Positions 5,901-54,880 of a stretch of DNA of 64,000 bases are shown here, piece by piece. The stretch is from positions 1,164,134 to 1,228,133 of the forward strand of contig CAJNDS010002524.1 in NCBI GenBank assembly GCA_905221605.1, read 5' to 3'. Position 1 is the stretch's first letter; each line of letters starts with the position of its first letter. A model generated the notes under the pieces. That model saw only the letters and a program-made list of their open reading frames with translations, did not search any database and was not told the DNA's origin. Position numbers and translations under genes: made by a program. The stretch comes from Symbiodinium natans. Taxonomy: Eukaryota > Sar > Dinophyceae > Suessiales > Symbiodiniaceae.

Positions 5901-8900
5901 CTGTCAACAAGGGTAAGGGACCGAAGGACTGTATCTTGGGTAACTATGGGTTCAACCTGACCAGGGCACTGCACTTGTAACCCCAAACCCCAAACCCCAA
6001 ACCCCAAACCCCAAACCCCAAACCCTAAACCCTAAACCCTAAACCCTAAACCCTAAACCCTAAACCCTAAACCCTAAACCCTAAACCCTAAACCCGAAAC
6101 CCTACTTCGAGGCACCCCAAAATGAACCTTCTTAAGCTTAGTAGTAGAGTAGGTAACCTTTAACCTTTTTGGGTTAATATCTTTCCCTTATAATCCCCAA
6201 GGTTAACCTTTAAAACCCCTAGGTACTGGACAACTAAGTTTTAGGGTTCAGGGTTTAGGGTTTACATAGGGTTTAGGGTTGAGGGGTTGTGGGTTTGGGG
6301 TTTAGTTAACCTTTAAAACCCCTAGGTACTGGACAACTAAGTAAGTGCAGGTTCGGATGCATCGGGGACTCCATGAACCTCACCAGCCGCATCCAGGGCC
6401 TCTGCCGAAAGTACGCCTGCGAGGTGGGTTTTAGGGGGGTTTAGGGGGGTTTAGGGGGGTTTAGGGGGGTTTGGGGTTTAGGGTTTAGGGTTTAGGGTTT
6501 AGGGGGGTTTAGGGGGGGTTTAGGGGGGTTTAGGGGTTTAGGGGGTTTAGGGGTTTAGGGGGTTTAGGGGGTTTAGGATTTGGGGTTTATGGTTTGGAGG
6601 TTGAGGGGTTTAGGGGTTTGGAGGTTGAGGGGTTTAGGGGTTTGGGGGTTGAGGGCTTAGAGTTTACGTGCAGCGTCCAGTTGCAAAAGAGGGCTTCGGG
6701 TTTTGGGGGTGGCTCCTGTAGGCGCCCCGGACCTTGTCCAGGCGCGACATGCCGTTTAGGGTTTAGGGTTTAGGGTTTAGGGTTTAGGGTTTAGGGTTTA
6801 GGGTTTAGGGTCAAGCCTGATGCCAGGAGTGTTTAGGGCTTGCGAAAGCTAGCTCAAACGCCCTAGACCCTAAACCCTAAACCCTGGGCTCCCTCCCCCA
6901 CAGCTCCCATGTTTTTTTTGTAAAATTGCCCTGGACCTCTCTAGAAAGCTCTTCTGGCCCATAGAAACTTGACTCTAGCAGACCCCCACATCCAGCCCAG
7001 CGTGGCTTTTCAGGTTTGAGAATTTAAGGGTTGAAAATTTAAGGTTTCAAGGCTTATCGGGTTAGTTGAGCACGTCCGTTCCTAAAGCACCCGCACCCCA
7101 ATACAGTGTAAGCCCAAAAATCATTCCCGAAACCTCAAACAGTGCAAGTTGCCCGCAGATCCTTATACCCCGCAAACCCGCAAGCTAAAACAAAGCACGC
7201 CCGAAATATCATGGGTTTCCCTACTAGCCCCCTCTGTACTACCCCCCTAGGTTCCCCCCTTAAATACGCTCACTTATCTTTAAAAAACCTTAATTATGGG
7301 GGGAATCAGGGGGGGTAGTATAGAGGGGGGTAGTAGGGGAACCCATGAAAATATTGTACCTCAAAAACCGGCACCCAAAACGGCGCAAGCGCGGACATCT
7401 TGTAAAATCCGTGCACCCTCAACTCCCCAAGCCGTTCTTCACAGTTTTCTGTCCTGGCCGAAATGCGCGATAAAACGGGAAGCACGTACGGTTTTTTGCA
7501 CGGGTGAGTTATTCCAGTTAGGGTTTCGGGTTTTCCGGGGCTGAGGGTTTTCCAAGGTGTATGAGGCTTGGGGCGTTGCCCTCTGCAGTGTGCATAAGGC
7601 TTGGGGTTTTGCCCTCTACCCAAACCGCCCGATGAACCCTAAACCCGAAACTTGACCCGAAGGTCATGTGCTCCGAAGCCACCCACGAGCAGCTGAACGG
7701 AAGAATGGTCTGCAGGAAGATTGAAGATGAGAAGGCCTGTTGCAAAGCCCTAAACCCTCAAAGGTTTAGGAATTTAGGGTGTAAGGGCCAAGCCTAAAGA
7801 CGGCTTAAAGATTTGAGGTTATGTTTTTTTTTGAGGGGGGGAGAGGGGGGGGGGAGGGAGCAGGGAGGGGGCAGGGAGGGGGCAGGGCGGGGGCAGGCGG
7901 GGGCAGGGCGGGGGCAGGGGGCTGGACGAGACCTGGGCGGGGGCTTCAGGGTTTAGGGATTCACTGCAACACCGAGAGCTTGTTAATCGGTTCTCGGAAT
8001 CCCATGCTCCCTCCCTGGCAAGCACTGTAGATTGCTTCAAGCGGTCCGCAGCAGTCACTTGCGAGCCAAACCCGCACGATCCAATCCGACCTACATTGAT
8101 GTGGTTTGGAGTTCGGAGTGGTTTTGATTCTGCTTTGTGCCTTCTTTGCTGTGGTTGCAGAAGTTGTACTTGCTGTTCTTGGATATTCTGACATTCCCCA
8201 AATAGGGGTACCCTATACCGCGTGTGCCACAAACGACTTAGATCCTTTTTCTCCCTCCCCCCCCCCCCCCCAAAGAACGGGAAACTCTCATTCTGGGAAA
8301 CCCCCTGATCATGGCGGAAGAGTGGATGGGCGACGGTGGAACTCTATTCCACAAGGCCCAGGGGGCGCAGGAGGCGTAACTGCAGCAAGCCAACAATAGC
8401 CCACACCCACCTCCGCCCACGGAAGCAGAAAAGAACACACAGCAGAAAACATAAATCCAAAACCCCAAATGGCCCCCAAACCCAATAAGCCTAAACACCA
8501 AACCTCGACAAGCCAACAACCCTAAACCCTAAACCCTAATCCCACAGGTCAAGGAGTCAACAACCCAACAACCCTAAGCCCAAAGCCCTCTAAGTCCCAA
8601 ACTCCAAACCCCACGCCCTAAACCCTAAACCCTAAACCCTAAACCCTGAACCCGAAAGCCTCTAAAACCCATAGACCCCCAAGCTTTCGAGACGTTTCGG
8701 GTGTTTAGGGGTTACAGGATGTCTGGGGTTTGGGGCCCTAAACCCTAAACCCTAAACCCTAAACCCTAAACCCTAAACCCTAAACCCTAAACCCTAAACC
8801 CACAGGTCAAGGGGCGTCAGGAGCCGACTGGCGTTTGGGAAGTCATGGGCTCCTGGGACCAAGGCATCATAGGGGTTGGGGTTTAGGGTTTAGGGTTTAG

Positions 8901-33585: not shown

Positions 33586-36500
33586 ATGGATGAAACAAAC
33601 GTGGAGCTGCAAGAGCCCCAGGCCTCTTCCTTCGCATTTAGTTGAACTTTAACTGCTTTTTGGGCTTTAGGGTTTAGGGTTTAGGGTTTAGGGTCCCCCC
33701 TTGGCTCTTGGAGAAGTAAGGCCTTCGTGGCCGCTGCAATCATCCTCGAGGTGTGTTTAGCCGGCCGCCTTGTGTACCAGGCGGCTTTGGGGTTTAGGGG
33801 ATTAGGGGTTAGGGGTTTAGGGTTTAGGGTTTAGGGTTAGGGGTTTAGGGTTTAGGGTTTGGGGTTTGGGGTTTGGGGTTTTGGGGGTTAGGGGCTAGGG
33901 GTTTAGGTGGTTCCACACAGGGCACCAAGAGAGCCTTCGAGGAGGGACGAAAACCCCAAACCCTAAACCCTCAACCCTAAACCCTAAACCCTAAACCCTA
34001 AACCCTAAACCCCAAACCCTAAACCCTAAACCCAAAGTCGGCACCCTAAAGGTTTGCAAGCACGGCAAGCCAATGAGAAGCATGTGGCGGCGAATCGCAT
34101 CCTACGCAATGCGAATGGCCAGATCGCTTGTTCCTTGGTAGCGAAGTGGTACCCTTTACCACTCTTTGGTTCTGGGTTCCCTTATCAAGTAACCAACCCC
34201 AAAACCCCAAACCCTAAACCCTAAACCCCAAACCCCAAACCCCAAACCTAAACCCTAAACCCTCTACCGTGCCACCTAAGGTTCCATTTTCTGATGACTC
34301 CGACAGCGCCTGGGATGGGTAAATGCCTGGTTCTTGCTATTGCTTCGCAGGGTACTCAAAGCTCAGGGTTTAGGGTTTAGGGTTTAGGGTGTAGGGTTTA
34401 GGATATAAGTTTGGTGCAGGGCCGAAGCTCCATGATTCAACGATAAGGGCATGTCTGAAGATAGCTGACATCTTCATAGGCCCAGGGTTTAGGGTTTTGG
34501 GTTTTGGGTTTAGGGTTCAGGGTTCAGGGTTTAGGGTTTGTTCCTTAGTATAGGGACCCCTATAATGACGAAGATCCCCCCCCCCCCCCCCCGCCACAAG
34601 ACAAGCAGCAGCTATTGGAGTTGTTGCACGGCAAGTGGCCGCCGGGCGGTTGAGAGTTTAGGGTTTAGGGTTAGGCTTTGGAGTTTAGGGTTTAGGGTTT
34701 TTGGGTTTAGGGTTTAGGGTTTAGGGTTGGTCTGATTACAAAATTCAGGAAAAGTCTGCATCCACGAGGAGGTGAGGGCACTTCGCTGGTACATCAGTCG
34801 AAAGATAGTTGCCTTGAACCTGACTATGTTGCTGGTCATTGTGGGCCTGATCCAGATGCGAGTTGTCTTTCAGCTGCCCCTGGGTTGCTGTCAAGAAGTT
34901 GAGATCAAGTGATACCTATTACTTACGTAGCCAAGAGTTGAACTTTAAACTTTTTGGGCTTCCTTAATTAGTAGGAAGAATACAGTTTAACCTTTTTCCC
35001 TTGGTTATTTCAGAAGTAAGATTATTAGGTCACAGACTGAATATATAGATCTGGCAAACTTCATGCCAGCTCTTCGCTCCCGCAACGCAGGCCAGCGACC
35101 GTCCAGGGATCATTCTGTTGGACCCTTCTTGGAACATTTGGCTGCATGTGTGCGGCGTTCATTTTCCCGCGAATTACCCGGACAGACCTGTCGTATCTGG
35201 TCTACTCATGCCTGCTGATGCTCTACATCCTACCCATGAACCTTACTTAGCCAAGAGTTGAACTTTGAACTTTTTGGGCTTCCTTGTTTAGTAGGAAGAA
35301 TAAAGTATTAACCTTTGTTTCCCTTGGTTATTGGAGAAGTAAGGAACTCCAGTACCGCTGGCACCACCCGCGTGGCTCCACTGCTCTTCACACTTTTCCG
35401 GCTGCCTGCTACCGCCATGGTGACTTACTTCGCCTTTAGTTGAACTTTAGGGTTTAGGGTTTAGGGTTTAGGGTTTAGGGTTTAGGGTTTAGGGTTTAGG
35501 GTTTAGGGTTTAGGGTTTAGGGTTTTAAACTTTCTGGGTTTCCTTATTTAGTAGGAACATTGAAGCTTAACCTTTTCTTCCCCTTGGTTATTGGAGGAGT
35601 AAGGTGAACCGTATCTACTTTGTCCTTCTCGGCAACTTGCCGTTCTTGGCAATCATGACGTGGCGAGTCTCCTCAGAGGATTTTGACAACAGCTACGGGG
35701 GCCGAACTGCTGCGGTGGGCATGGAGTGCTTACATATCCTGGTGCTTGTGGGCTTGGCCGTTGCGCTTCAAGACTACCTCTGCGGCAGAGTGGAGAAGGA
35801 GCAGGAGAGGAGCAACACCGTCACCCAACTCAATGCCGCCTCCTCGCTGCTCCAGCTTCTTAGGGGTACTTGGAAGTATTTTGTTTAATTTTTGGGCATG
35901 ATAATTCCTAAGAAGCCCTAAACCCTAAACCCTAAACCCTCAAGGCTGACGTGCGACGCCGTGGTGGAGTTGGACGGAGACCTCCGCCTTACGAAGCACT
36001 CCCAGGAGCTCTCAGCCACTTAGGGGAGCTGGGTAGAGAACCCTTTTAGAATACCCTTTTTGGGGTTTAGGGTTTAGGGTTTAGGGTTGTGACATGAATC
36101 CTATTGCAAGTACATGAGGGTTAACCTGTATAAGCTGTTTGGTTATCTATGAGCCCTATGACAAACGAAGCACGGTGAACCTTTTTTGGGCCTACTAGGG
36201 CATTTTCAGCCCCTAAGGCCATGCTACTCCGAGACGCTGGCCGGAGCGCGTCGCTCGAAGGCGTGCGCTTCACGGATCTGGTGCCTGCCTCCGAGGCGGC
36301 CGGCGCACTCAAGCAGCTCCTTACTTCGCCTTTAGTTGAATTAGGGTTTAGGGTTTAAGGTTTAGGGTTTAGGGTTTAGGGTTTAGGGTCAAAAGGGTTT
36401 AGGGTTTAGGGTGCAGGGCTTAGGGTCAAAAGGATTTAGGGTTTATGTAGGGTTTAGGGTTTCCTTATTTAGTAGGACTATTAAAGCTTAACCCTTTTTT

Positions 36501-38580
36501 CCCTCGTGGTTATTGGAGAAGTAAGGCTCACCCACTTCCGCAGCACCGCGGGAAGCGGGAGCTCGCAGCTTGATGGCATGTGCGCACATGCCTTCCACAC
36601 CCGCTTGATCGACAGCTGCGCCACGAGGCTCCAAACGGAGGTCCTTCAAGTGATGTACAGCAACTTTGTCATAGTTGGGTAACATGTTACATTTTTTAAG
36701 GGTACTTAAACCCAATAAGGAATAAAGGTTTAGATTGTTAATGTTATCCCAACAATGAGCTAGGCAAGAGGGATGGCGCAACGTGCCATCTGGTGGGCCT
36801 GCGTGACTTTACCGATACCAAGCCCTACACCAGTGTGGACAGCGTCCCGCACCTCGGTGACGATGTGACTCGCTAGCCCAGTGGTACCCTTTACCCTTTT
36901 TTTTGGCTCTGGGTTCCCTTATAAAGCAACCAACCAAAAAACAAGGGGTGCCCTTAGTATAATCTGGTTGCTGGGCTACCAAGGCCATTACACCCTGCAA
37001 TCCCTTAAAAGGCCCTTTTATAGGGTTCATCATGGGGATAATCTGGTTACTGGGCTACCAAGGTGATGTCTCCTGTTCACAGTGTAGTACCTGGGTCTTG
37101 GAGTACTATACTTTAATACTTTTCTTGGTTCTGGGTTCCCATTCTAGCTACTTATATACCTAAAAAGTATATACTTTTTTTTCAGGGTCTACTCCAAAGC
37201 TAAGGTAAGCCTCAGTTCCTTCATCGCTCCGACTCCTGCCGACTATGCTGGCAGCGAGGCCTGCCAGATGCCTCTGCAGCGTGGGACGCTGTTCCTTCGG
37301 CTTGGTAGCGCAGTGGTACCCTTTTCCTTTTTTGATTTTTGGTTCAAGGTTCTAACCAAGCGAAAAAAAGTGCCATTGTGATAATCTGGTTACTGGGCTG
37401 CTAAGTCGGGATACTTGGGAATCTTTTGTCCTTTTTTGGGGGCACTAGAGTCCCCGAAGACACTAGAAAATATGATTTTTTTGCTAGGGTTCCTCAAGTT
37501 CAGTGTAGATGTGGGTCTCAGCATACCCCTGAACAGCCTACTGTAGGTAGGCCCTAGGCCCTCCTAAGAAACAGCTACAACTGTATCTTTTGCTAAACCC
37601 TAAACCCTAAAGTCCTCTAAATAATCCCTAAATACACCCTAAAACCCTCAACCCTGAAAACCCTGAATTTTTGTTCAGAATAGGTTTTTGGAGATTGACG
37701 TGGATGGGTTGCTGGTTCACGCGGCGTCCTCAAGCCTCGTTGATTTGGTTGGAGCGCCGGCTTGTCAGGCTTGGAGATGTTCTTGGATGCTTCCCCCTAA
37801 TACTAACAAAGGGTTTAGGGTCTAATTAGGGTTCAGGGGTTAGGGAGTCCTCAATAGGGATTATAGGATCCCCCTATGATGATCCCTATTAAGGACTGGT
37901 AGTATAAGGTGAACATTCCAATTTGAGCTTTCTGAACTCACATGATGTGTTGCATGCGAGCCATGCCTTACCTGGGACCCTCTTTACCTACAGTTTCATG
38001 GGCTATACCTACAAACTAAAGGTAGTTACTACTAACCTGTCGGCAAACAGAGTCCCAGGTAAGCCCTAAGATCTCGAACGACACGATGCCCGCAACAAAC
38101 CAAGCGAACACAGCTTCAGACCCTGACCTGAACTACTTGGAGGCTCAGGGTACTTATAACCCCCCATTCTAGCTGTACCGAAAAGCCCCCATAAGTCCCC
38201 TAAGTCCTCTAGGAAGGTCCTTAGTAGACTTATCATCGGAGTTAGAAGTACCCGTGAACCTACAAGAATGCTCGCTGCCCATAATGAAGGCTATTTAGGG
38301 ATAATTAAGCTGAATCAAGGCTATTTCAGGGGGGGAACCTAGGGGGGGGGGGGTAGTTTTGAGGGGGGTAGTAGGCAAACCCATGAGCCAATAAACCTGA
38401 ACTACGCCGGGCGTCCCAACCCTAAACCCTAAACCCGAAACCCTAAACCTCCAAGTACGCCAGGTGTTCCCTGCCTCTCATACGATTCAGCTCTTGGAGC
38501 GGATTCACAGTGATGGGCGGATGCGCCTGGAAAGGGGCGAGCGCCCACCCGCAAAAGCTGCTGGACACTGCAAGAAACAA
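33586..38580 (+). CDS. Multi-exon membrane protein with PAS-like domains, introns made of mobile elements
   Basis: Exons: 33586-33621 (ATG, MDETNVELQEPQ), 33721-33780, 33921-c.33940, 34052-34129, 34281-c.34318, c.34601-34648, 34749-34908, 35091-35237, 35344-35419, 35604-35854, 35945-36014, 36218-36315, 36526-36667, 36760-36864, 37063-37094, 37210-c.37300, 37499-37542, 37684-37759 and 38464-c.38580. Phase is kept at most junctions. The N-terminal half has several hydrophobic helices (KIVALNLTMLLVIVGLIQM; LSYLVYSCLLMLYILP; ECLHILVLVGLAVALQ). Then a soluble part reads CDAVVELDGDLRL, LEGVRFTDLVPASEA, AFHTRLIDSC and CHLVGLRDFTD, followed by a second unit FLEIDVDGLLVHAASSSLVD and VFPASHTIQLLERIH. 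These resemble PAS-like sensory domains of a family I recall from dinoflagellate proteomes; the fold is an inference. Donors are GT, GC and GA; acceptors AG. The joins near 33940-34050, 34318-34600 and 37300-37414, and the C-terminal end, are unsure. Confidence 0.75.
33626..33720. repeat. Family B introner (GCCT duplication)
   Basis: CTTCCTTCGC...TTTAGTTGAACTTTAA to CTCTTGGAGAAGTAAG, with TTTAGGG units in the middle. GCCT lies at 33622-33625 and 33721-33724; using the left GC as donor and the terminal AG as acceptor joins EPQ to AFVAAAIILEV in frame. Confidence 0.85.
34134..34280. repeat. Family C introner (GTTC duplication)
   Basis: CTTGGTAGCGAAGTGGTACCC...GCCACCTAAG, with telomere-like repeats inside and GTTC at 34130-34133 and 34281-34284. 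As a GT-AG intron it joins ARSL to VPFSDDSDSAWD. Confidence 0.8.
34922..35020. repeat. Family B element inserted inside an older intron (ATTA duplication)
   Basis: CTTACGTAGCCAAGAGTTGAAC...CAGAAGTAAG with ATTA on both sides. Unlike its relatives it is not at the exon edge: the intron runs from GT at 34909 to AG at 35090. Confidence 0.85.
35242..35343. repeat. Family B introner (GAAC duplication, GA-AG intron)
   Basis: CTTACTTAGCCAAGAGTTG to TTGGAGAAGTAAG. GAAC at 35238-35241 and 35344-35347. The intron 35238-35343 starts GA and ends AG; removal joins LPM to NSSTAGTTRVAPLL in frame. Confidence 0.9.
35424..35603. repeat. Family B introner (GTGA duplication) carrying TTTAGGG
   Basis: CTTACTTCGCCTTTAGTTGAAC to TTGGAGGAGTAAG, with about eleven TTTAGGG units at 35448-35524. 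GTGA at 35420-35423 and 35604-35607 makes a GT-AG intron of 184 nt joining ATAM to VNRIYFVLLGNLP. Confidence 0.9.
35855..35944. repeat. Introner CTTCTTAGG...CCTAAGAAG ending in CCCTAAA (GC-AG intron)
   Basis: An inverted repeat CTTCTTAGG/CCTAAGAAG followed by three CCCTAAA units and CTCAAG. GCT at 35855 and 35945. Splicing joins ASSLLQ to LTCDAVVELD. The 3' end of this intron, including the run-up to its AG, is telomere-type sequence. Confidence 0.8.
36019..36217. repeat. Family F introner (GCCA duplication, GC-AG intron)
   Basis: CTTAGGGGAGCTGGG...CAGCCCCTAAG with GCCA at 36015-36018 and 36218-36221. Removal joins QELSA to MLLRDAGRS. A related fragment is at 39545-39640. Confidence 0.9.
36320..36525. 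repeat. Family B introner (GCTC duplication, GC-AG intron)
   Basis: CTTACTTCGCCTTTAGTTGAA to TTGGAGAAGTAAG, with a large telomere-like interior that itself shows a duplicated TAGGGTCAAAAGG. GCTC at 36316-36319 and 36526-36529. Joins GALKQL to THFRSTAGSG. Confidence 0.9.
36668..36759. repeat. Family G introner
   Basis: GTTGGGTAACATGTTACA against TTAATGTTATCCCAAC. The GT at 36668 and AG at 36758-36759 (or the AG nine bases later) keep the frame YSNF...RDGATCHLVG. The target duplication is not clear here. Confidence 0.65.
36869..37062. repeat. Family C introner with doubled right end (GTGA duplication)
   Basis: CTCGCTAGCCCAGTGGTACCC to GGTTACTGGGCTACCAAG with GTGA at 36865-36868 and 37063-37066. 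The right-end motif ATAATCTGGTT.CTGGGCTACCAAGG occurs twice, at about 36960 and 37039, so splicing could in principle end at either AG. Confidence 0.85.
37095..37209. repeat. Family D introner
   Basis: GTCTTGGAGTACTATACTTT against AAAGTATATACTTTTTTTTCAGGG...CTACTCCAAAGCTAAG. The reading frame is kept only if the acceptor is the AG of GTAAG five bases beyond the inverted repeat (37209); this joins VVPG to LSSFIAPTPADYAG. Confidence 0.65.
37301..37405. repeat. Family C element (TCGG duplication)
   Basis: CTTGGTAGCGCAGTGGTACCC to GGTTACTGGGCTGCTAAG with TCGG at both sides. As an exact element excision it would be a TC-AG intron, so its splicing is uncertain. Confidence 0.7.
37414..37498. repeat. 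Family E introner
   Basis: CTTGGGAATCTTTTGTCC against GGGTTCCTCAAG. Using the GA at 37410 as donor and AG at 37498 keeps phase between LFLR and FSVDVGLSIPLNSLL. It lies directly after a family C element. Confidence 0.6.
37774..37920. repeat. Family H hairpin element in the PAS-like gene
   Basis: Left arm TTCCCCCTAATACTAACAAAGGG, then telomere-like DNA, then TCCTCAATAGGGATTATAGG and ATTAAGGACTGGTAGTATAAGG. One of four element types inside the single intron 37760-38463. Confidence 0.75.
37971..38060. repeat. Family M element in the PAS-like gene
   Basis: CTTACCTGGGACCCTCTTTACC against GAGTCCCAGGTAAG, a near-perfect inverted repeat, in the intron 37760-38463. Confidence 0.85.
38136..38266. repeat. 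Family A fold-back element (long form) in the PAS-like gene
   Basis: CTTGGAGGCTCAGGGTAC against GTACCCGTGAACCTACAAG with the central CCCCCATAAGTCCCC. Confidence 0.85.
38330..38400. repeat. Family P fold-back element, right arm
   Basis: GGGGGGAACCTAGGGGGGGG...GGGGGGTAGTAGGCAAACCCATGAG matches the right arm of the element at 7209-7348. A CCCTAAA patch with a diverged duplication of the acceptor region (ACTACGCCGGGCGT at 38401; AGTACGCCAGGTGT at 38454) follows. Confidence 0.7.
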
Positions 38581-39243
38581 CCCTAAGCCCCAAACCCTAA
38601 ACCATAAACCCTAAACCCTAAGCCCTAAACCCTAAACCCTAAACCCTTTGCTGGCCTTATCTTGCAACAGTTTTTGTGGCAGGGTGCGAGGTTCGGTCCG
38701 AAATGTTTAGGGCTTGCTAGGGCGGAATCTCCACCCCATGCCCGAAGACCCTAGGGTTTAGGGTTTAGGGCTTAGGGCTTAGGGTTTAGGGTCCTGAAAC
38801 CCCTAGAAACCCAACAACGCTAAACTCCGAGACCTTAAAACCCCTAGGACCTCAAACCCCTGAACCTCTAAAACCCAAAACCCCAAAGCCCTAGGCTAGA
38901 GGGTTTATGGTTTAGGGTTTAGCATATTTCCATGTTCCCTGCTTCGGTTGAAGAGAATCTTTTTTCGCATCTTTACAGTAAACTCCTGAAAGTTGGAACA
39001 TGGCTTACGGGTGCTTAGAGCTGGGATTCCCTGTAGTATACCTTTTGGGGTATAGGGATAAGGATGTTCCAACTTTTTTGAAATTTACTTTCTGGTCTTC
39101 AGGGCCAACCTTGAAGGTTGCACGTAACAGTACCCCCAAAAAATGAGTTGCTGCTTTCTGGGGTATTTGATTTTTCAAGTTACAACAAGAAGAATAAGCA
39201 GACTTGTCGTTTATTCTCATTCTCTATCCCTGAAGTTTAAGTT

Positions 39244-39352
39244 TGGGATTGCCCCCCTTGTAATACTAACAGTTCTTAATAGGGATTGCAATAGGGGAGG
39301 TACTATAATCCCTATTAAGGACTGTTAGTATAAGGGGGAACATCCCAAGTTA
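39244..39352. repeat. Family H hairpin element, best preserved copy
   Basis: TAATACTAACAGTTCTTAATAGGGATT is answered by AATCCCTATTAAGGACTGTTAGTATAAGGGGGAACATCCC: two arms of about 40 bp with few mismatches. A truncated copy follows at 39650-39715. Confidence 0.9.
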
Positions 39353-39751
39353 AGTTCCTTAAGAGCAAGCCACAAAAACAGTGTGTGCCAGGTTGACGCG
39401 TGGGCGAGAGTTGGTGGGAGCCGGGGGTTCAACCTTAAGCGCTCCCTCCCTTCTTAGGGGCTGAGGGTGTTGGGGTTTGGGTTTGGGGTTTGGGGTTTAG
39501 GGTTTGGGGTTTAGGGTTTAGGGTTTAGGGTTTGGTCTGAGTACCTTGAACCTTTTGGTTATTTATCATCTATTGCAAATACAAGGTTAACTCTTTTTGG
39601 GGCCAGGTTATTCAGCCCCTGAGCCTTCAAGCAGCCATAGAGAAGTAACTTCGGAGGGATTACAGCACTCCCTATGATAATCCCTATGAAGGACTGTTAG
39701 TATAAGCGGGAACATAAACCCTAAACCCTAAACCCTAAACCCTAAACCCAA

Positions 39752-39857
39752 GGTCTTCTCCTACGAAGACTTGCCCGCACATCTTCGCCCTTTCGCAGCG
39801 GCAGAATTCATCTGCGGCACCATGCAAGTGGTCCAGGCCCCATGCCATCGAGATGTT
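39752..39857 (+). CDS. Unassigned exon, 35 codons
   Basis: Reads KVFSYEDLPAHLRPFAAAE then FICGTMQVVQAPCHRDV. Clean coding character between two telomere-like patches; may be a C-terminal exon of the PAS-like gene or a new gene. Confidence 0.45.
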
Positions 39858-39889
39858 CGTTTTGGGTTTAGGGTTCAGTGGAGAAGTGA

Positions 39890-40220
39890 ATCATAAGTGG
39901 TGGCTTCCAAAGCACGAAACGTCTGCAGACTTGGCTACGGGATCTCTGCATTCAGCATTAGCCTGCCCGACATCATCCTAAAACCCAAAACCCTAAACCC
40001 TAAACCGTGGGGGGTGGAGGGGGTGTGGTCTCGACTCCCCAGAATCCCCCCGCAGGCGCAGACTGGGCTGAACGTGCTAATGGCCTTCCAGGCGGCCAGG
40101 GAACCTTCGCAAAAAGAAGGTTAGGGTGCAGGGTTTTGGGTTTGAGGTTTGGGGTTTAGGGTTTGGGGTTTGGGTTTCAGGACTTCAGAGCCACCCTTGC
40201 TGGAACCTTTATGCTGGTAA
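39890..40220 (+). CDS. Three short exon candidates
   Basis: 39890-39977 reads VVASKARNVCRLGYGISAF and SISLPDIIL; 40056-40122 reads TGLNVLMAFQAAREPSQKE after CGCAG; 40179-40220 reads DFRATLAGTFML after TTTCAG and ends at GT. Spacing and orientation fit one gene; phases were not all verified. Confidence 0.4.
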
Positions 40221-45879: not shown

Positions 45880-46110
45880 GGGTTGGGGTTTAGGGTTTAG
45901 GGGTTGGGGCTTAGGATTTAGGGTTTAGGGCTTAGGGTTTAGGGTTTAGGGTTTAGGGCTTAAGGCTTAGGGCTTAGGGCTTAGGGCTTAGGGCTTAGGG
46001 CTTAGGGTTTGGGGTTTGGGGTTTAGGGTTTAGGGGTTGGGGTTTAGGGTTTAGGGTTTAGGGTTTAGGGGTTGGGGTTTAGGGTTTAGGGTGTAGGGTT
46101 TAGGGTCCAG
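45880..46110. repeat. Mixed TTTAGGG and CTTAGGG array
   Basis: Includes seven consecutive GGGCTTA units (about 45957-46008) and several GGGGTTGGGG spacers: another homogenised variant block. Confidence 0.85.
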
Positions 46111-46189
46111 GCACGACAACACATGGCATGCAATTCTTAGACCCTAAATTCTACATATATATATATATATGCTCACCCCCCCCTACGAC

Positions 46190-47420
46190 AGACCCCGGAA
46201 GCGAAACAAAGGTATTTATAATAATAATGTTGTACGTTCATGCATTTGTTGAGTTCTTTCACGCTTCGCTTTCCTAATTAAAAAAAGAGAATAACGAAAC
46301 GAAAAAGATAAAAGAAACATAGAAAACAATAAACAATCGAATTATATTTGTGGGCCAGAGCCCCTATAAATACAATGAATAAGAATACGAAATAAACTTG
46401 GACATTATAATAAAGCATAAGAAATACATAATAAAGCATGAAAATAAGGAAAGTATTGCAAGGAAAACCATGGACGCCAGGTGCTTACAGGATTTAATAT
46501 TAAAATTATAGCAGTTACAATCATATTTTCCATCGCTGCTTCGTTCTCACCTTTTGATTGTATTCTCGCTTCACTACGTTCATTGAAATACAATATAAAA
46601 TGTGATCACTTCCTTACCTTCCGGAAAAATATTAATACAAATAGAATTATAAGGAATGGAAGTCATGATGTCAAGATACTGATGAAAGAGCGCTCAATCT
46701 CCAGTGTTATTTTCTCCCTTATAAAACCGCACGCATATTACAAGTAAGGTGTGAACGCAGCAAACCAGAAAATAAGGAAGATAGTAATGTAATGTCAAGA
46801 TACGACCATAAGATGGAAAGTTGTCTACAGGAAATTGACCACCTATCCAAATAACAGAAAAAAATGAAAGAAGCCAAAAGCACAGATAAAAAACCATTAA
46901 ATCTACTGGACGTCTTCATTATAAAATAGAATGACATTGAAAGACTTCTCAGAAGATAGAAGTAAATAAGATAATGAATCCTGCTTTGTTATTTGGTACA
47001 GCTTTTAATATAGCATATTGGCATAAGAAATACCATTCAGGTACTATATGTAAAGGAGTAAGTAATCCACATGCTTGTAATGCATTATCTGGATGCGAGA
47101 AAGAAGAGAAGCCGAAATGAATTTGTAGAAGATATAGATAGAGAATTGATATCTTTCCATAGAAATCTTTAGTAATAATGAAAGGAAAATGATATTTTAT
47201 TATAGGTGGAATTCCTTAAAGGATTATTAGAAGAAAGAAAATGTAGAGGAAGAATAGCACAAAGAAATGGAAATAGAAAATGAAAGACAAAGAACCTCCT
47301 TAATGTTGGATTGTAAATATACTGTCCTCCACAAAGCCATTCTATTAAAGATGGAAATTGAGATAATAAATTTGTAATTTCTGTAAGTGCATCAGCAAGG
47401 TGGAATGTATGTGTGGGCAG
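46190..47420. other. AT-rich mitochondrial insert (NUMT)
   Basis: About 1.2 kb with base composition quite unlike its surroundings, free of CCCTAAA and of all the element families, and containing a minus-strand cytochrome b copy (46690-47398). The remaining part (46190-46690) has no recognised gene and may be mitochondrial spacer. Boundaries are estimated from the base-composition change; a TA microsatellite sits at the left edge. Confidence 0.75.
46690..47398 (-). pseudogene. cob: Cytochrome b, mitochondrial type, 5'-truncated and frameshifted
   Basis: Reading the minus strand: [20 protein letters not shown] and [19 protein letters not shown] (from 47398 down), then a frame change, then HPDNALQACGLLTPLHIVPE and WYFLCQYAILKAVPN (about 47095-46975), and after further breaks VIWIGGQFPVDNFPSYGR (about 46850-46800). 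HPDN, the PEWYFL motif and the WIGGQ.P end are diagnostic of cytochrome b of the bc1 complex. The first third of the protein is absent. Dinoflagellate mitochondria carry only cob, cox1 and cox3 as protein genes and their transcripts are edited, so some apparent breaks could be editing sites rather than decay. Confidence 0.85.
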
Positions 47421-47514
47421 AAGCGCATCCTCGCACGTCCGTCAGCAACTCCAATAGCTGTTGCTAGCATAGCTCTCTGTTTTGTAATATATTACATATC
47501 TGTCATGAGTGTGG

Positions 47515-48010
47515 AACCCCTGAAAAAATCTTATCAAAACTCCAGTTTCTAAAATTCCAAAAATCCAAAAAATCCACCCCCAAGGTTTGGAGTTTTGGAA
47601 ACTCGAGCGGGAGCCTTAAAATCCAAAAATCGAGCAAATTCCTCGAGTTTCCATTGTTCCAAAAATCCAAAAAAATCCACCCCAAGGTTTGGGTTTTTGG
47701 AAACTCGAGCGGGAGCCTCAAAATCCAAAAAAAAACAAGCAAATTCCTCGAGTTTCCAAAATTCCAAACCTTGGGGTGGGTTTTTCGGATTTTTGGAATT
47801 TTGGAAACTCGAGGAATTTGCTCGGTTTTTGGATTCTGAGGAAATTCCTCGAGTTTCCAAAGTTCCAAACCTTGAGGTAGGTTTTTGGATTTTGGGAATT
47901 TTGGGAACTCGATTTTTGGATTTTGAGGCTCCCGCTCGAGTTTCCAAAATTCCAAACCTTGGGGTGGATTTTTTTGGAGTTTTGGAAACTCGAGGAATTT
48001 TGGAGTGTTG
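47515..48010. repeat. Block of direct and inverted repeats built on CTCGAG
   Basis: The unit CCAAGGTTTGGAGTTTTGGAAACTCGAG, GGGAGCCT.AAAATCCAAAAATCGAG and CAAATTCCTCGAGTTTCC recurs at least four times in alternating orientation. Both strands give long frames of similar low-complexity content, which I take as artefacts. It would fold into nested hairpins. Confidence 0.8.
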
Positions 48011-48062
48011 GTCTTCCGCCCCCTTCCTGGACAGACTGGAAATGCGCTTCCAGGGTCTGTCG

Positions 48063-48180
48063 TGGGGGGGGGGGGGGGTGGTGACCATATATATATATAT
48101 ATATACACATACATATACGTGTGTGTGTGTGTGTGTGCGTGTGTATATATGTGTCTATGTATATAAACATATACGCATAG
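48063..48180. repeat. Poly-G, (TA)n and (GT)n microsatellites
   Basis: A G run, a TA run and a GT run in succession; short TA runs continue to about 48340. Confidence 0.85.
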
Positions 48181-48345
48181 ACCTGTATCTACATCTACAT
48201 ACGCATGTTTCTTTGTATGGGCATTCGTAGAATGTATGCTTATGGAGTGTGTGAGTGTATGTATGTAATCCAATGTTTGCAACGTCTGTAACGTGTGCCA
48301 TGTATGTGCATATGTATACAGATGTACATATATATATATGTATAC

Positions 48346-48466
48346 ATTAAACCATTTGCGAAGAACGCAACCGATAATCCGAAGCTTTACCCAGGTACGG
48401 CCAGTTTGCCGGTCGAATTGATGTGGACAACGCCACCTGCTAAGTTGTTCTTTGCAGACGTCTGGG
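48346..48466 (+). CDS. Possible exon
   Basis: Reads PFAKNATDNPKLYPGTASLP then VELMWTTPPAKLFFADVWG just before a family A element (48484-48556). Good composition; no family recognised. Confidence 0.4.
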
Positions 48467-48483
48467 GGTTAGGGGGGCCTGAG

Positions 48484-50308: not shown

Positions 50309-50505
50309 ATAGGGGTCGGAGTACTTACTTATAGTATTCCTTAGTAGCAGAGTAGGTAACCTTTAACCTTTTTGGGTTAATATCTTCCCCTTATAATCCC
50401 CAAGGTTAACCTTTAAAACCCCTAGGTACTGGACAACTAAGATTCCCTTATGGTTCCTGTATGATTATACGATAAGAATTAAGGCCCCTATATTATATAG
50501 TATAT
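50309..50505. repeat. Family J element with a nested family K element
   Basis: Left part TATAGGGGTCGGAGTAC, right part ATTCCCTTATGGTTCC...ATTAAGGCCCCTATA; interrupted by the family K copy at 50340-50441. Confidence 0.8.
50340..50441. repeat. Family K element (ATTC duplication), near-identical to 6137
   Basis: CTTAGTAGCAGAGTAGGTAACC to TACTGGACAACTAAG, with ATTC at 50336-50339 and 50442-50445. I count two differences from the copy at 6137-6238 over 102 bases, the closest pair of elements in the window. Confidence 0.9.
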
Positions 50506-52136: not shown

Positions 52137-54880
52137 TCTCAGTATTCCTTTAGACTCCATTCGGGTTACTTGCAACACTTCTGCAATGCAAGAGCTTGGA
52201 ACAGATCATGGGCTTGTCAGTGCAAACTTCATGGTTATTGACCTCTGCAACACCCCCAAGCGACAACAGCAGTCCCGAAAAAGAAGTCGACAGTGTCATC
52301 GTTGGACTGTTCGAGTTGACCTCCCGGAGCTGGAGGAACAGCTCAGCAAATTCTGGTCGCCAGAAGCTGTGATGAACATTCATGAGCAGTTGTTTGTTCT
52401 CCAGCGCCTCGCCAACGGTGCATGCTCACATAGGAAGGGACTAAGGTTTATTGACCCCCCTCTGGTGAAAGACCTGTGCAAACAGAGACGAGAGGCCACA
52501 GATCCTGCTGAGCGTGCATGGTTGGTCAGGGCTGTGTCGTTAACTCGTGCTGCAGCCAAAAGGCAATGGTGGCAGAGCTTAGAAGACATGGCTGGGTAGG
52601 GCAATGGGGAGGCCATCAGGTATCTTCGCAGACGATTGCAGAAACCTACCACCACCTCTGCCTTGATCCGACAGTGTGGCGGCCAGGAGGCCGCTGCTAA
52701 AGCCATCCGAGAGCACACCCGTTCAGTTTTCGGTGCCCAGCTGTCGGACGAAGATATCGGGCTGCTGCGTCAGATGCAGAATGAACTGCGTAGTGCTGCA
52801 GCTTCTGCTCCCTTGTGTGCCTTCCAGCCAGACGAGGTTAGACAATATGTCCAAGACAAAGTGCACGTTCGAAAGACTGCTGGTATGCTGGGAGTCAGTG
52901 CGGAGCTCATTCGAGCTCTTTCGCTGACGGAGCTGGGCATGGACTTTCTCACTGGGCATTGCAACCTCATGCTACGTGACAAGATACTCCCCCAAAGCTA
53001 TTTGCGGGCATGTATGTGCCTGATTCCAAAGGACCCTGCCCACGCAATATAGACCGCTATGTTTGCTAGAGCCCATGGCCAAGCTTACCAGCGGCCTGGC
53101 CTACCAGCGCTTGATCCGTGTCTGGGAGCGGCCACAGTGTCAGCTAGGTGCCCTGACTGGGTGTCAGGTCATTGACTGCCTTTGGCTGTCACAAACTCTG
53201 CTTTACAAAGAGTATAAAACGGCTTCGCCAGGCCTTCGACAACCTCAGTCGTGTGGCTGTGCTAGACTTCCTCTTGAACCGGACCCCTCCAGGACTCCAG
53301 CATGAGGCGTGTCTCCTGTGGCAGTTATTACAGTGTCAACTCCACTTTTCTTGGGGAGATGAAGAATGGACTGTAGACGCCACCACTGGAGTCCAACAGG
53401 GGGCGCCTCTGAGCGCGGGCATTTTCAGCCTTATTGTAGGCTGGGCGCTGCAGAAACTCTTTGAGGTGTGGGAATGCAGCGGTGTACAATTTCAGCACAA
53501 ACTTCCGAGTGAACTGCCTTTGCTTGGTTGGGCGTATGTTGATGACATCATCCTAAATTTACAAACTTGGCCTGAGTTGGTTGCTTGTTTTGCTGCTTTG
53601 GAAAACACCCTTCAGGGCTTAGGGTTGTGCATCAACTTTGACAAGACTGTCATAGTGCTTCCTGACCGAATGTGGCCGGAAGCGAGAGCATTTGCGGCAA
53701 CTCACCCTGAACACCCTGTCTGCCGATGTAAGTGGAGAACTGATGGCGTATACCTCCGAAAACCCTTCAAGCCTTTCCAGTCAGCTTCCACTGTGTCGGG
53801 GTGGGCCCTGGCTGCTGCGGGAAAACTGGCGCACGCAGGGTGGGAAGAACTTGCCCCTGTGCTGCACCAGTGCCGATGGAATCATGGCTTGCTCCCCTTT
53901 GTTCTCCTTAACCGATACGTTTTCGCAAAGTTTTCGTGGTTTGGGATGATGATCGAGCCGCTGATACAGTGGGGGCAGGGCCTTGATAGCTTGCAATGCA
54001 CAATGATGTGCCTGTCCTTGCAGCTTTACATTCCCAGCAGCATGAAGGGAGAGCACGCAGTGTGCCTGCACCGCCTGCGCCGTCGCATGGTATACACTTG
54101 CCTTCAGCTGAACAATAAGTTCAGATGGCTCCTGCTTCTCATGCGAAGACGGTGGACGTATGCGGGACACCTGCTTCGAAAACCCCTGAACAGTCTGCCA
54201 TTGAGTATCATTGCTGCTTCCAATCCTGGCTCCATACGACAAGCAGTGCCAGCCCCGTGGCATAGCATATACACTTGGCTTGTTAAACAGTTGCAGGACT
54301 TGCGGTGGATTGAGCCCCATGATAAGCAGCCCAGCATTGAACAGCTGCAGGAACTTGCCAAGGACCGGGATGTTTGGTTTCAGGGCTGGGGTCGTCTTGA
54401 ACACCAATATTTCATGGAGTTGCAATATGAACATGTCTTTCTGTGGTCCAGCTTGAGAGTGGCCTTGCAAGCAGCCACGGCTTGGAAGCAGACAGTCGCA
54501 GTTGCTTGGGCATGTGAAAGCTGGTGGCTCATCTGGCTGAGCGAAATCGAGGGCCCTGCTAGGGTTGCATATGATGGGCACGATTTTTTGCATTGCGTGG
54601 GATACTTGCGGATGGAGTGCCCTGATGTTTGGGGCTTAGACTTCGTCGTGCCGCAAATCTTCCTGGACGTTCATCTGGGATGTGTGCTGTCATGGGTGCA
54701 GGCCATTTGGAATACTTATGGGTGCGTTGCTACCTTTTCGGTCATGAATGAAGTGGAAGGTCGTTTTGCGGTTGAGTTTGCGGGCTTGCAATAAGCCCTT
54801 CGCTACTGCTGAGCTCTGCAAGACGCGGTGCTTGGTGGTCCCAGCTGATGCTCAGAGCCTGGGTTCAGAAAAGGGTTTAG
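52137..54880 (+). mobile_element. Non-LTR (LINE-type) retrotransposon, 5'-truncated, degenerate
   Basis: The upstream end retains the last part of an endonuclease/exonuclease/phosphatase domain (LGTDHGLV, equivalent to the SDH motif). Then come a linker, the reverse transcriptase and a C-terminal region. The frame from 52141 to about 53045 has one stop (TAG 52597-52599); frame changes occur near 53045 (LIPKDP to YRPLCLLEPMAKL) and near 53215 (to LRQAFDNLSR). From there it is open to 54794. TTTAGGG repeats abut the 5' end, and the 3' tail ends CTGGGTTCAGAAAAGGG followed at once by TTTAGGG. It is a dead copy of an APE-type LINE. Confidence 0.9.
53172..54794 (+). pseudogene. Reverse transcriptase, 3' part, of the LINE-type element
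   Basis: A 540-codon open frame holding RT motif A (RQAFDNLSR, whose leading Asp is lost at the frameshift), motif B (TGVQQGAPLSAGIFSLIV) and the catalytic YVDD at 53534-53545, then the thumb and a C-terminal segment with WTYAGHLLR, typical of LINE post-RT regions. It would reverse-transcribe the element's RNA at a nicked target. The N-terminal fingers (GVSAELIRAL, LIPKDP, RPLCLLEP) are in the upstream frames. Confidence 0.9.

Follow-up and report, generated by a model that had tools for sequence, protein, structure and literature searches.

Predicted introns made from small inverted-repeat transposons in a gene of Symbiodinium natans

The gene and its predicted introns

The locus described here lies in a 64,000-nucleotide stretch of the Symbiodinium natans genome (assembly GCA_905221605.1, contig CAJNDS010002524.1, positions 1,164,134 to 1,228,133), hereafter the window. 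On its forward strand, to which the introns and family copies placed below also belong, homology to the orthologous Symbiodinium proteins P0002 and P0003 defines a protein-coding gene that can be followed over 33586..40091. An earlier, sequence-only reading had closed the gene at 38580, which is too early, as homologous exons continue to about 40091 in the P0002 alignment. Searches with the protein encoded by the joined exons gave 83 homologues (E <= 0.001) and no Pfam match; the closest are P0001-P0004 (64-71% identity), among which P0002 and P0003 are labelled Symbiodinium. The family is a dinoflagellate one, with some relatives named PAS domain-containing. The gene's own product is absent among the 83 homologues, in which the S. 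natans label occurs on two proteins of 36-38% identity; the published S. natans gene set may lack the gene, or may contain it at a length that the search did not cover. Elsewhere in the window, a tRNA search found none, and a low-GC stretch (46001-48468; GC 0.36 in the bin 46001-48000) is adjacent to long, simple-repeat-like frames (47.5-48.5 kb).

Introns were placed with a spliced aligner that scored protein similarity, favoured G(T,C,A)..AG ends and was blind to target-site duplications (TSDs). The resulting set comprises 15 homology-supported introns between 33622 and 40055, namely 14 of the 15 introns from the alignment to P0003 and one, 39837-40055, from P0002 only. Left out were a merged intron (36865-37192 with P0003, 36865-37204 with P0002) and the last intron from P0002 (40092-40664, GCGG/GTGG), beyond which the match is poor; the alignment to P0005, with several disagreements, was excluded. 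When the splice-dinucleotide preference was removed, all 15 P0003 intron lengths were unchanged and two additional introns appeared in a poorly matching tail; with P0002, several introns shifted, near the amino end and in an unconserved stretch. Across 16 predicted introns (the 15 plus 36865-37062), the donors are GC in 11, GT in four and GA in one, and the acceptor is AG in 16/16.

Eight of these introns carry identical 4-bp duplications on both sides. Six are supported by structure and homology alike: 33622..33720 (GCCT; family B, its middle replaced by a TTTAGGG array), 34130..34280 (GTTC; family C), 35238..35343 (GAAC; family B without a telomeric array), 35420..35603 (GTGA; family B with a 77-base TTTAGGG array), 36015..36217 (GCCA; family F) and 36316..36525 (GCTC; family B with a telomeric array). 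The intron at 36660..36763 (GCAA; element G) was placed by homology and recovered in a scan for elements, and that at 36865..37062 (GTGA; family C, right end duplicated) has its start from homology and its end from structure only. Four further homology-placed introns match at three of four positions: 34876..35090 (GCCC/GCCA; element E, with terminal inverted repeats (TIRs) CTGGGTTGC/GCAACGCAG), 35855..35944 (GCTT/GCTG; element CTTAGGGG..CCCTCAAG), 37291..37683 (GTTC/GTTT) and 39837..40055 (GCCC/GCGC; P0002 only). The remaining four, also placed by homology, are 33781..34051 (GCGG/GTTT, one matching position, with telomeric arrays inside), 34306..34748 (GCGC/GAAA, without a TSD), 37769..38463 (GCTT/GTGT, without a clear TSD) and 38557..39752 (GCTG/GTCT, without a TSD). 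The first of these is probably an old element (CTTTGGG..CCCAAAG) whose acceptor has moved downstream, a shift judged by eye. A possible intron at 37087..37204 (GTAC/GTAA; element D), with its end taken from the P0002 alignment, is of low confidence; both it and 36865-37062 fall in a stretch that is unconserved in the orthologues.

Several introns contain further elements. Nested copies with identical TSDs that do not begin with G occur at 34918..35020 (family B, ATTA) in the 34876..35090 intron, at 37297..37405 (family C, TCGG) in the 37291..37683 intron, and at 39449..39623 (family F, CCTT) in the 38557..39752 intron. Outside the gene, family H is represented at 6133..6341 (TAAG), where the two copies of the right end flank a telomeric stretch, and at 50336..50441 (ATTC). 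The 6133-6341 and 36865-37062 copies both carry the right end twice, with a telomere-type stretch between the ends in one of them; these doubled ends perhaps reflect partial duplication during gap repair.

The sequence-only reading had described seven introns, each as an element with inverted termini plus one copy of a 4-bp duplication. All seven have the given 4-mer on both sides at the positions reported and an element of the form CT...AG between; in each, the left duplication supplies the first intron bases (GC, GT or GA) and the element end supplies the AG. Six of the seven coordinate pairs were reproduced identically by the TSD-blind alignment to P0003. Thus, intron boundaries coincide with element plus TSD in 7/7 by structure and in 6/7 with both ends supported by homology, to which 36660-36763 can be added. 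The list was nevertheless incomplete, as it omits the perfect 36660-36763 (GCAA/GCAA) and several decayed introns. Its assignment of elements D, E and G to further introns stands for E (three of four TSD positions) and G (perfect TSD), both homology-supported, and is of low confidence for D. Removal of the element and one TSD copy restores the coding frame, as had been claimed, judged by homology alignment in this gene and in a second, threonine dehydrogenase-like (TDH-like) gene described below: the orthologue alignment is gap-free at the junctions 35237/35344, 35419/35604, 36014/36218 and 36315/36526, and shows extra residues at two wrongly guessed intron ends.

Target duplications and element families

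Among the 15 homology-defined introns, seven TSDs are perfect, four match at three of four positions, and four match at two positions or fewer (introns of 271, 443, 695 and 1196 bp). The total of 45 matching positions was reached in 0/20,000 permutations (mean 29.6, maximum 42), and the seven perfect TSDs compare with a mean of 0.74 and a maximum of 6 in 20,000 permutations; TIR similarity at the intron ends was equalled in 6/20,000. In a scan of the window for CT..AG ends, TIRs of at least 11/16 and an exact TSD, 13 places were found, compared with 1-5 in ten shifted controls. Four of the 13 (10753, 37613, 41119 and 56312) lie outside the described families, with TSDs that do not begin with G. 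Extended to 264 kb (the window and 20 regions of 10 kb), the scan found 33 CT..AG places, whereas six shifted controls gave 5-9. An excess over the single control, in part far larger than for CT, was also seen with other end dinucleotides (AA, 678 vs 15; TT, 539 vs 14; TG, 34 vs 8) and is assumed to represent simple repeats. Both scans omit telomeric or low-complexity ends; the 34918-35020 copy is below the scan threshold and was read separately. The 20 regions come from 18 contigs matched by a query containing a telomeric array, at arbitrary round positions except for the two ends and middle of the window's own contig (C2212), and three of them contain N. Element D entered the TSD-permutation and end-comparison tests with its start at 37085/37089, later placed at 37087. 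On the permutations and the shifted-control window scan, a chance origin of the repeats was rejected.

Short repeats at intron ends could also stem from sliding of introns or from resemblance to the splice consensus (AG|G context), with no transposition involved. A first G is indeed expected from splice context, and position 1 matches in 15/15 introns. However, matches also occur at positions 2-4 (11, 10 and 9 of the 15 introns), and no permutation reached the total. Moreover, copies outside exons carry exact TSDs that do not begin with G, distant copies of family B have perfect TSDs in 25 of 38 cases, and a related empty site was found for one copy, so that sliding or consensus is an exceedingly improbable explanation of the 4-bp repeats.

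The distant copies were obtained by searching the 759-Mb genome with the family B element at 35242-35343. Of 1417 candidates, 40 were scored, all of them near full length and 88-100% identical to the query, two of these being in the window. In the 38 copies outside it, whose boundaries were set by end similarity and not by TSD, 25 TSDs are perfect and 32 match at three positions or more; among the 13 without a perfect TSD, six match at two positions or fewer. The 25 perfect duplications represent 21 different, A/T-rich 4-mers. Family B is thus mobile in the S. natans genome, with 4-bp target duplications at many different sequences. When genomic copies were picked, five of 16 were skipped for carrying more than two telomere-type heptamers. 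For family C, 40 of 2908 candidates were scored, and these measure about 103-113 bp apart from the query itself; the doubled right end belongs to the window copy of 194 bp. Family C copies on C2289, C1882, C1771 and C1338 are spaced about 2.3-2.4 kb apart, as if within tandemly repeated units.

Families B, C and F had been regarded as unrelated, which the element ends contradict. Their right ends agree at 9.3/16 positions, compared with 4.1 in shuffles (0/2000 as high), although for the left ends of these three alone the agreement is not significant (127/2000 shuffles). With family H included, right ends agree at 9.5/16 (shuffles 4.0; 0/2000) and left ends at 7.5/16 (shuffles 4.5; 0/2000), with a shared end motif of the type CTTAGTAGCCCAGTAACC. 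In this comparison, families C and F were represented by nested copies (37301 and 39453) in place of intron copies. From this agreement, B, C, F and H probably form one superfamily served by one transposase. The right ends of G (0-5/16) and E (2-6/16) do not agree in this way with those of other families, and at least two further element types are therefore indicated. A Pfam search of 10 window ORFs gave one match above the cut-off, a reverse transcriptase, and no transposase match. The reverse transcriptase ORF (53157-54791; RVT_1, E 1e-7) probably belongs to a LINE.

Miniature inverted-repeat transposable elements (MITEs) and related TIR DNA transposons are about 100-200 bp long and have TIRs, a TSD of fixed length, many copies and an empty site. 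The S. natans elements share this size, the TIRs, the TSD, the copy number and the empty site; TIRs with a constant 4-bp TSD length were found in the window, in the 264 kb and in the 38 family B copies. They differ in that one end is a predicted 3' splice site.

Intron gain and the filtering of insertion sites

Dispersed copies of family B include a predicted intron of another gene, in the one case checked. The copy at C480:756311-756411 (TSD GAAC) interrupts a reading frame that continues in frame once the element and one TSD are removed. The joined frame reads as part of a protein of the NAD-dependent epimerase family (Pfam E 0.00023), with L-threonine 3-dehydrogenases as the best structure-chain matches (best E 2.1e-8, for an artificial protein; natural ones from 2.3e-7). 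The two PDB alignments displayed, both to artificial enzymes, run across the junction without a gap. Four joined flank pairs were also searched for empty sites, and a related one was found for the family B copy at C1907:21399-21499 (TSD CAAA). Its joined flanks match repeats at C2322 and C1112 at 82% identity, with BLAST matches that span the junction by about 26-28 bases on the left and 80 on the right. Both repeats carry a single CAAA; 2-3 bases to its left, the length differs by one base, which reduces an ungapped comparison to 31 and 34 of 52 bases. For the C1557 join (L044), the matched repeats stop so near the junction that they were not counted, and no empty site was found for the other two of the four joins.

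These results support the earlier proposal that the gene gained many of its introns by repeated insertion: frames are restored, 25/38 distant TSDs are perfect, the C480 insertion lies in frame in a conserved enzyme gene, and one related empty site exists. Very probably, the introns arose when small non-autonomous TIR DNA transposons, introners of MITE type, inserted into the gene, with splicing predicted from sequence. At that level, at least seven of the gene's more than 12 introns are transposon-made. An element would insert, generate a 4-bp duplication of its target and bring its own 3' AG, with the 5' donor taken from the duplicated target. One transposase common to B, C, F and H is envisaged to serve their related ends in trans. 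Afterwards, TSDs would decay, later elements would nest inside, and telomere-type repeats would expand within. The four introns with TSD matches at two positions or fewer (271, 443, 695 and 1196 bp) could be of other origin.

The same four introns, 4/15 without a clear TSD, fit a different history, in which old spliceosomal introns were later entered or replaced by transposons. Such a history would also accommodate the three nested elements (34918-35020, 37297-37405 and 39449-39623), each of which lies in a larger intron and has a non-G TSD of its own. In addition, the paralogous locus L034 has an intron (residue 400, phase 0) two residues from the window's 36865 intron (residue 402, phase 0), although in a poorly aligned stretch, and the two may be shared. 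On the other hand, in seven homology-supported introns the exon edge itself makes up the TSD, and the intron is exactly the element plus one TSD copy. Across eight paralogous loci aligned, no intron shares both position and phase with an intron of the window gene. Old introns invaded by elements are thus a very unlikely origin.

Some paralogues bear on the direction of change. Three S. natans paralogues have an open frame across most of the protein and lack the introns of the window gene: C136 (residues 3-535), C2222 (12-460) and C2156 (20-478). The C136 protein is identical over 548/548 residues to P0035, labelled Symbiodinium natans; a 60-base 'intron' called in C136 by the aligner falls where conservation is poor and the frame is open. 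In a tree, none of the three belongs to the clade that contains the window gene and P0001-P0008, so they may represent old or retroposed copies. Although consistent with intron gain, they do not prove it, and it is the TSDs and the empty site that carry the argument for insertion.

A further possibility is that the segments are recent, unspliced insertions in a decaying gene, in keeping with the absence of its product among the 83 homologues and the low identity of the two S. natans-labelled proteins there (36-38%). Against this, excision over 15 introns gives an open frame with 64-71% identity to orthologues, and all 16 well-placed introns begin with G and end with AG. The TSDs that interrupt exons are also G-first in 8/8 cases, compared with 9/25 in the genomic family B copies. 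Decay of this kind is therefore highly improbable.

The bias toward G was compared in more detail between insertion contexts. All eight exon-interrupting copies with perfect TSDs (seven homology-supported and 36865-37062) are G-first. The first TSD base in the 25 perfect genomic family B copies is T in nine, G in nine, A in five and C in two; in the 20 regions, 8/20 scan hits are G-first. None of the five window family copies that do not bound exons is (ATTA, TCGG, CCTT, TAAG and ATTC). Fisher tests give p = 0.0018 for 8/8 vs 9/25, 0.0034 for 7/7 vs 9/25 and 0.00078 for 8/8 vs 0/5. The first of these is conservative because at least one of the nine G-first genomic copies is itself exonic (C480). 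G is also above one quarter in the genomic copies (9/25; 8/20), and a possible trend links G-first genomic copies to long joined frames. Insertion is therefore not restricted to G-first targets, and splicing probably acts as the filter. For the MITE-type introners proposed here, the comparison suggests filtering by splicing rather than targeting: because insertion is not so restricted, only those insertions with a G-first TSD would persist in exons.

Telomere-type repeats and comparison with known introners

The window holds 532 TTTAGGG and 403 CCCTAAA heptamers, together 10.2% of its bases, compared with about 4.4 of each expected from base composition. In the gene, such heptamers account for 637/4893 intron bases and 0/1613 coding bases. 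In the 20 further regions, they make up a mean of 8.5% (range 0.07-20.4%), on both strands and at places distant from contig ends as well. That the motif is subtelomeric was rejected, since both ends and a middle stretch of C2212 carry 9-11%. Family B varies in this respect: arrays are absent from the elements at 35242 and 34922, follow an identical 21-base left end in the two at 35424 and 36320, and take the place of the middle in the element at 33626. One tentative scenario, itself rather doubtful, is that introns are born from introners and then grow by (TTTAGGG)n arrays arising inside the elements, through telomerase at internal breaks or repeat slippage. This might have left about 8-10% of the sampled DNA as interstitial telomere motif, in introns and intergenic sequence and kept from exons. 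No report of such a motif load was found in the literature searched, which lay largely outside subscription journals; PMC8045281 contains no mention of telomer, TTTAGGG or introner, and PMC11114475 none of telomer or TTTAGGG.

Introners are established in dinoflagellates, as the sequence-only reading had stated. In Symbiodinium microadriaticum, introners are reported to have a 4-bp TSD, TIRs and their own 3' splice site, with the 5' site drawn from the TSD (Gozashti et al., 2022; PMC9860276). The S. natans elements are from the same genus and share the published mechanism. The S. natans gene is set apart by several families in one gene, some nested and several with telomere-type arrays. For P. 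glacialis, a summary in PMC11453091 gives 12,253 recent introner introns and 15 large families (Roy et al., 2023); S. natans resembles it in having many distinct introner families per genome. Pattern-based introner counts for P. cordatum and compared dinoflagellates, with S. natans in the tables, appear in PMC10666404. Like the introners in that source and those of Amoebophrya (Farhat et al., 2021; PMC7789003), the S. natans elements have inverted repeats near the intron ends and direct repeats, of 3-5 nt in those accounts, over exon-intron boundaries. Unlike Amoebophrya, whose introns are given there as mostly non-canonical, the placed S. natans introns all start with GC, GT or GA and end with AG.

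The kind of element and its mechanism are therefore known, and the element families and the history of this gene are a new, well-resolved instance. What has been added is a homology-defined intron set, the G-first comparison, the correction of family relationships and the observation on the telomere motif. The comparison of 8/8 with 9/25 turns the choice between transposase aim and a splicing filter into a test that can be made by genome-wide counting. In addition, a single gene displays the stages of intron gain together, with fresh copies bearing perfect TSDs beside decayed, nested and telomere-repeat-swollen ones.
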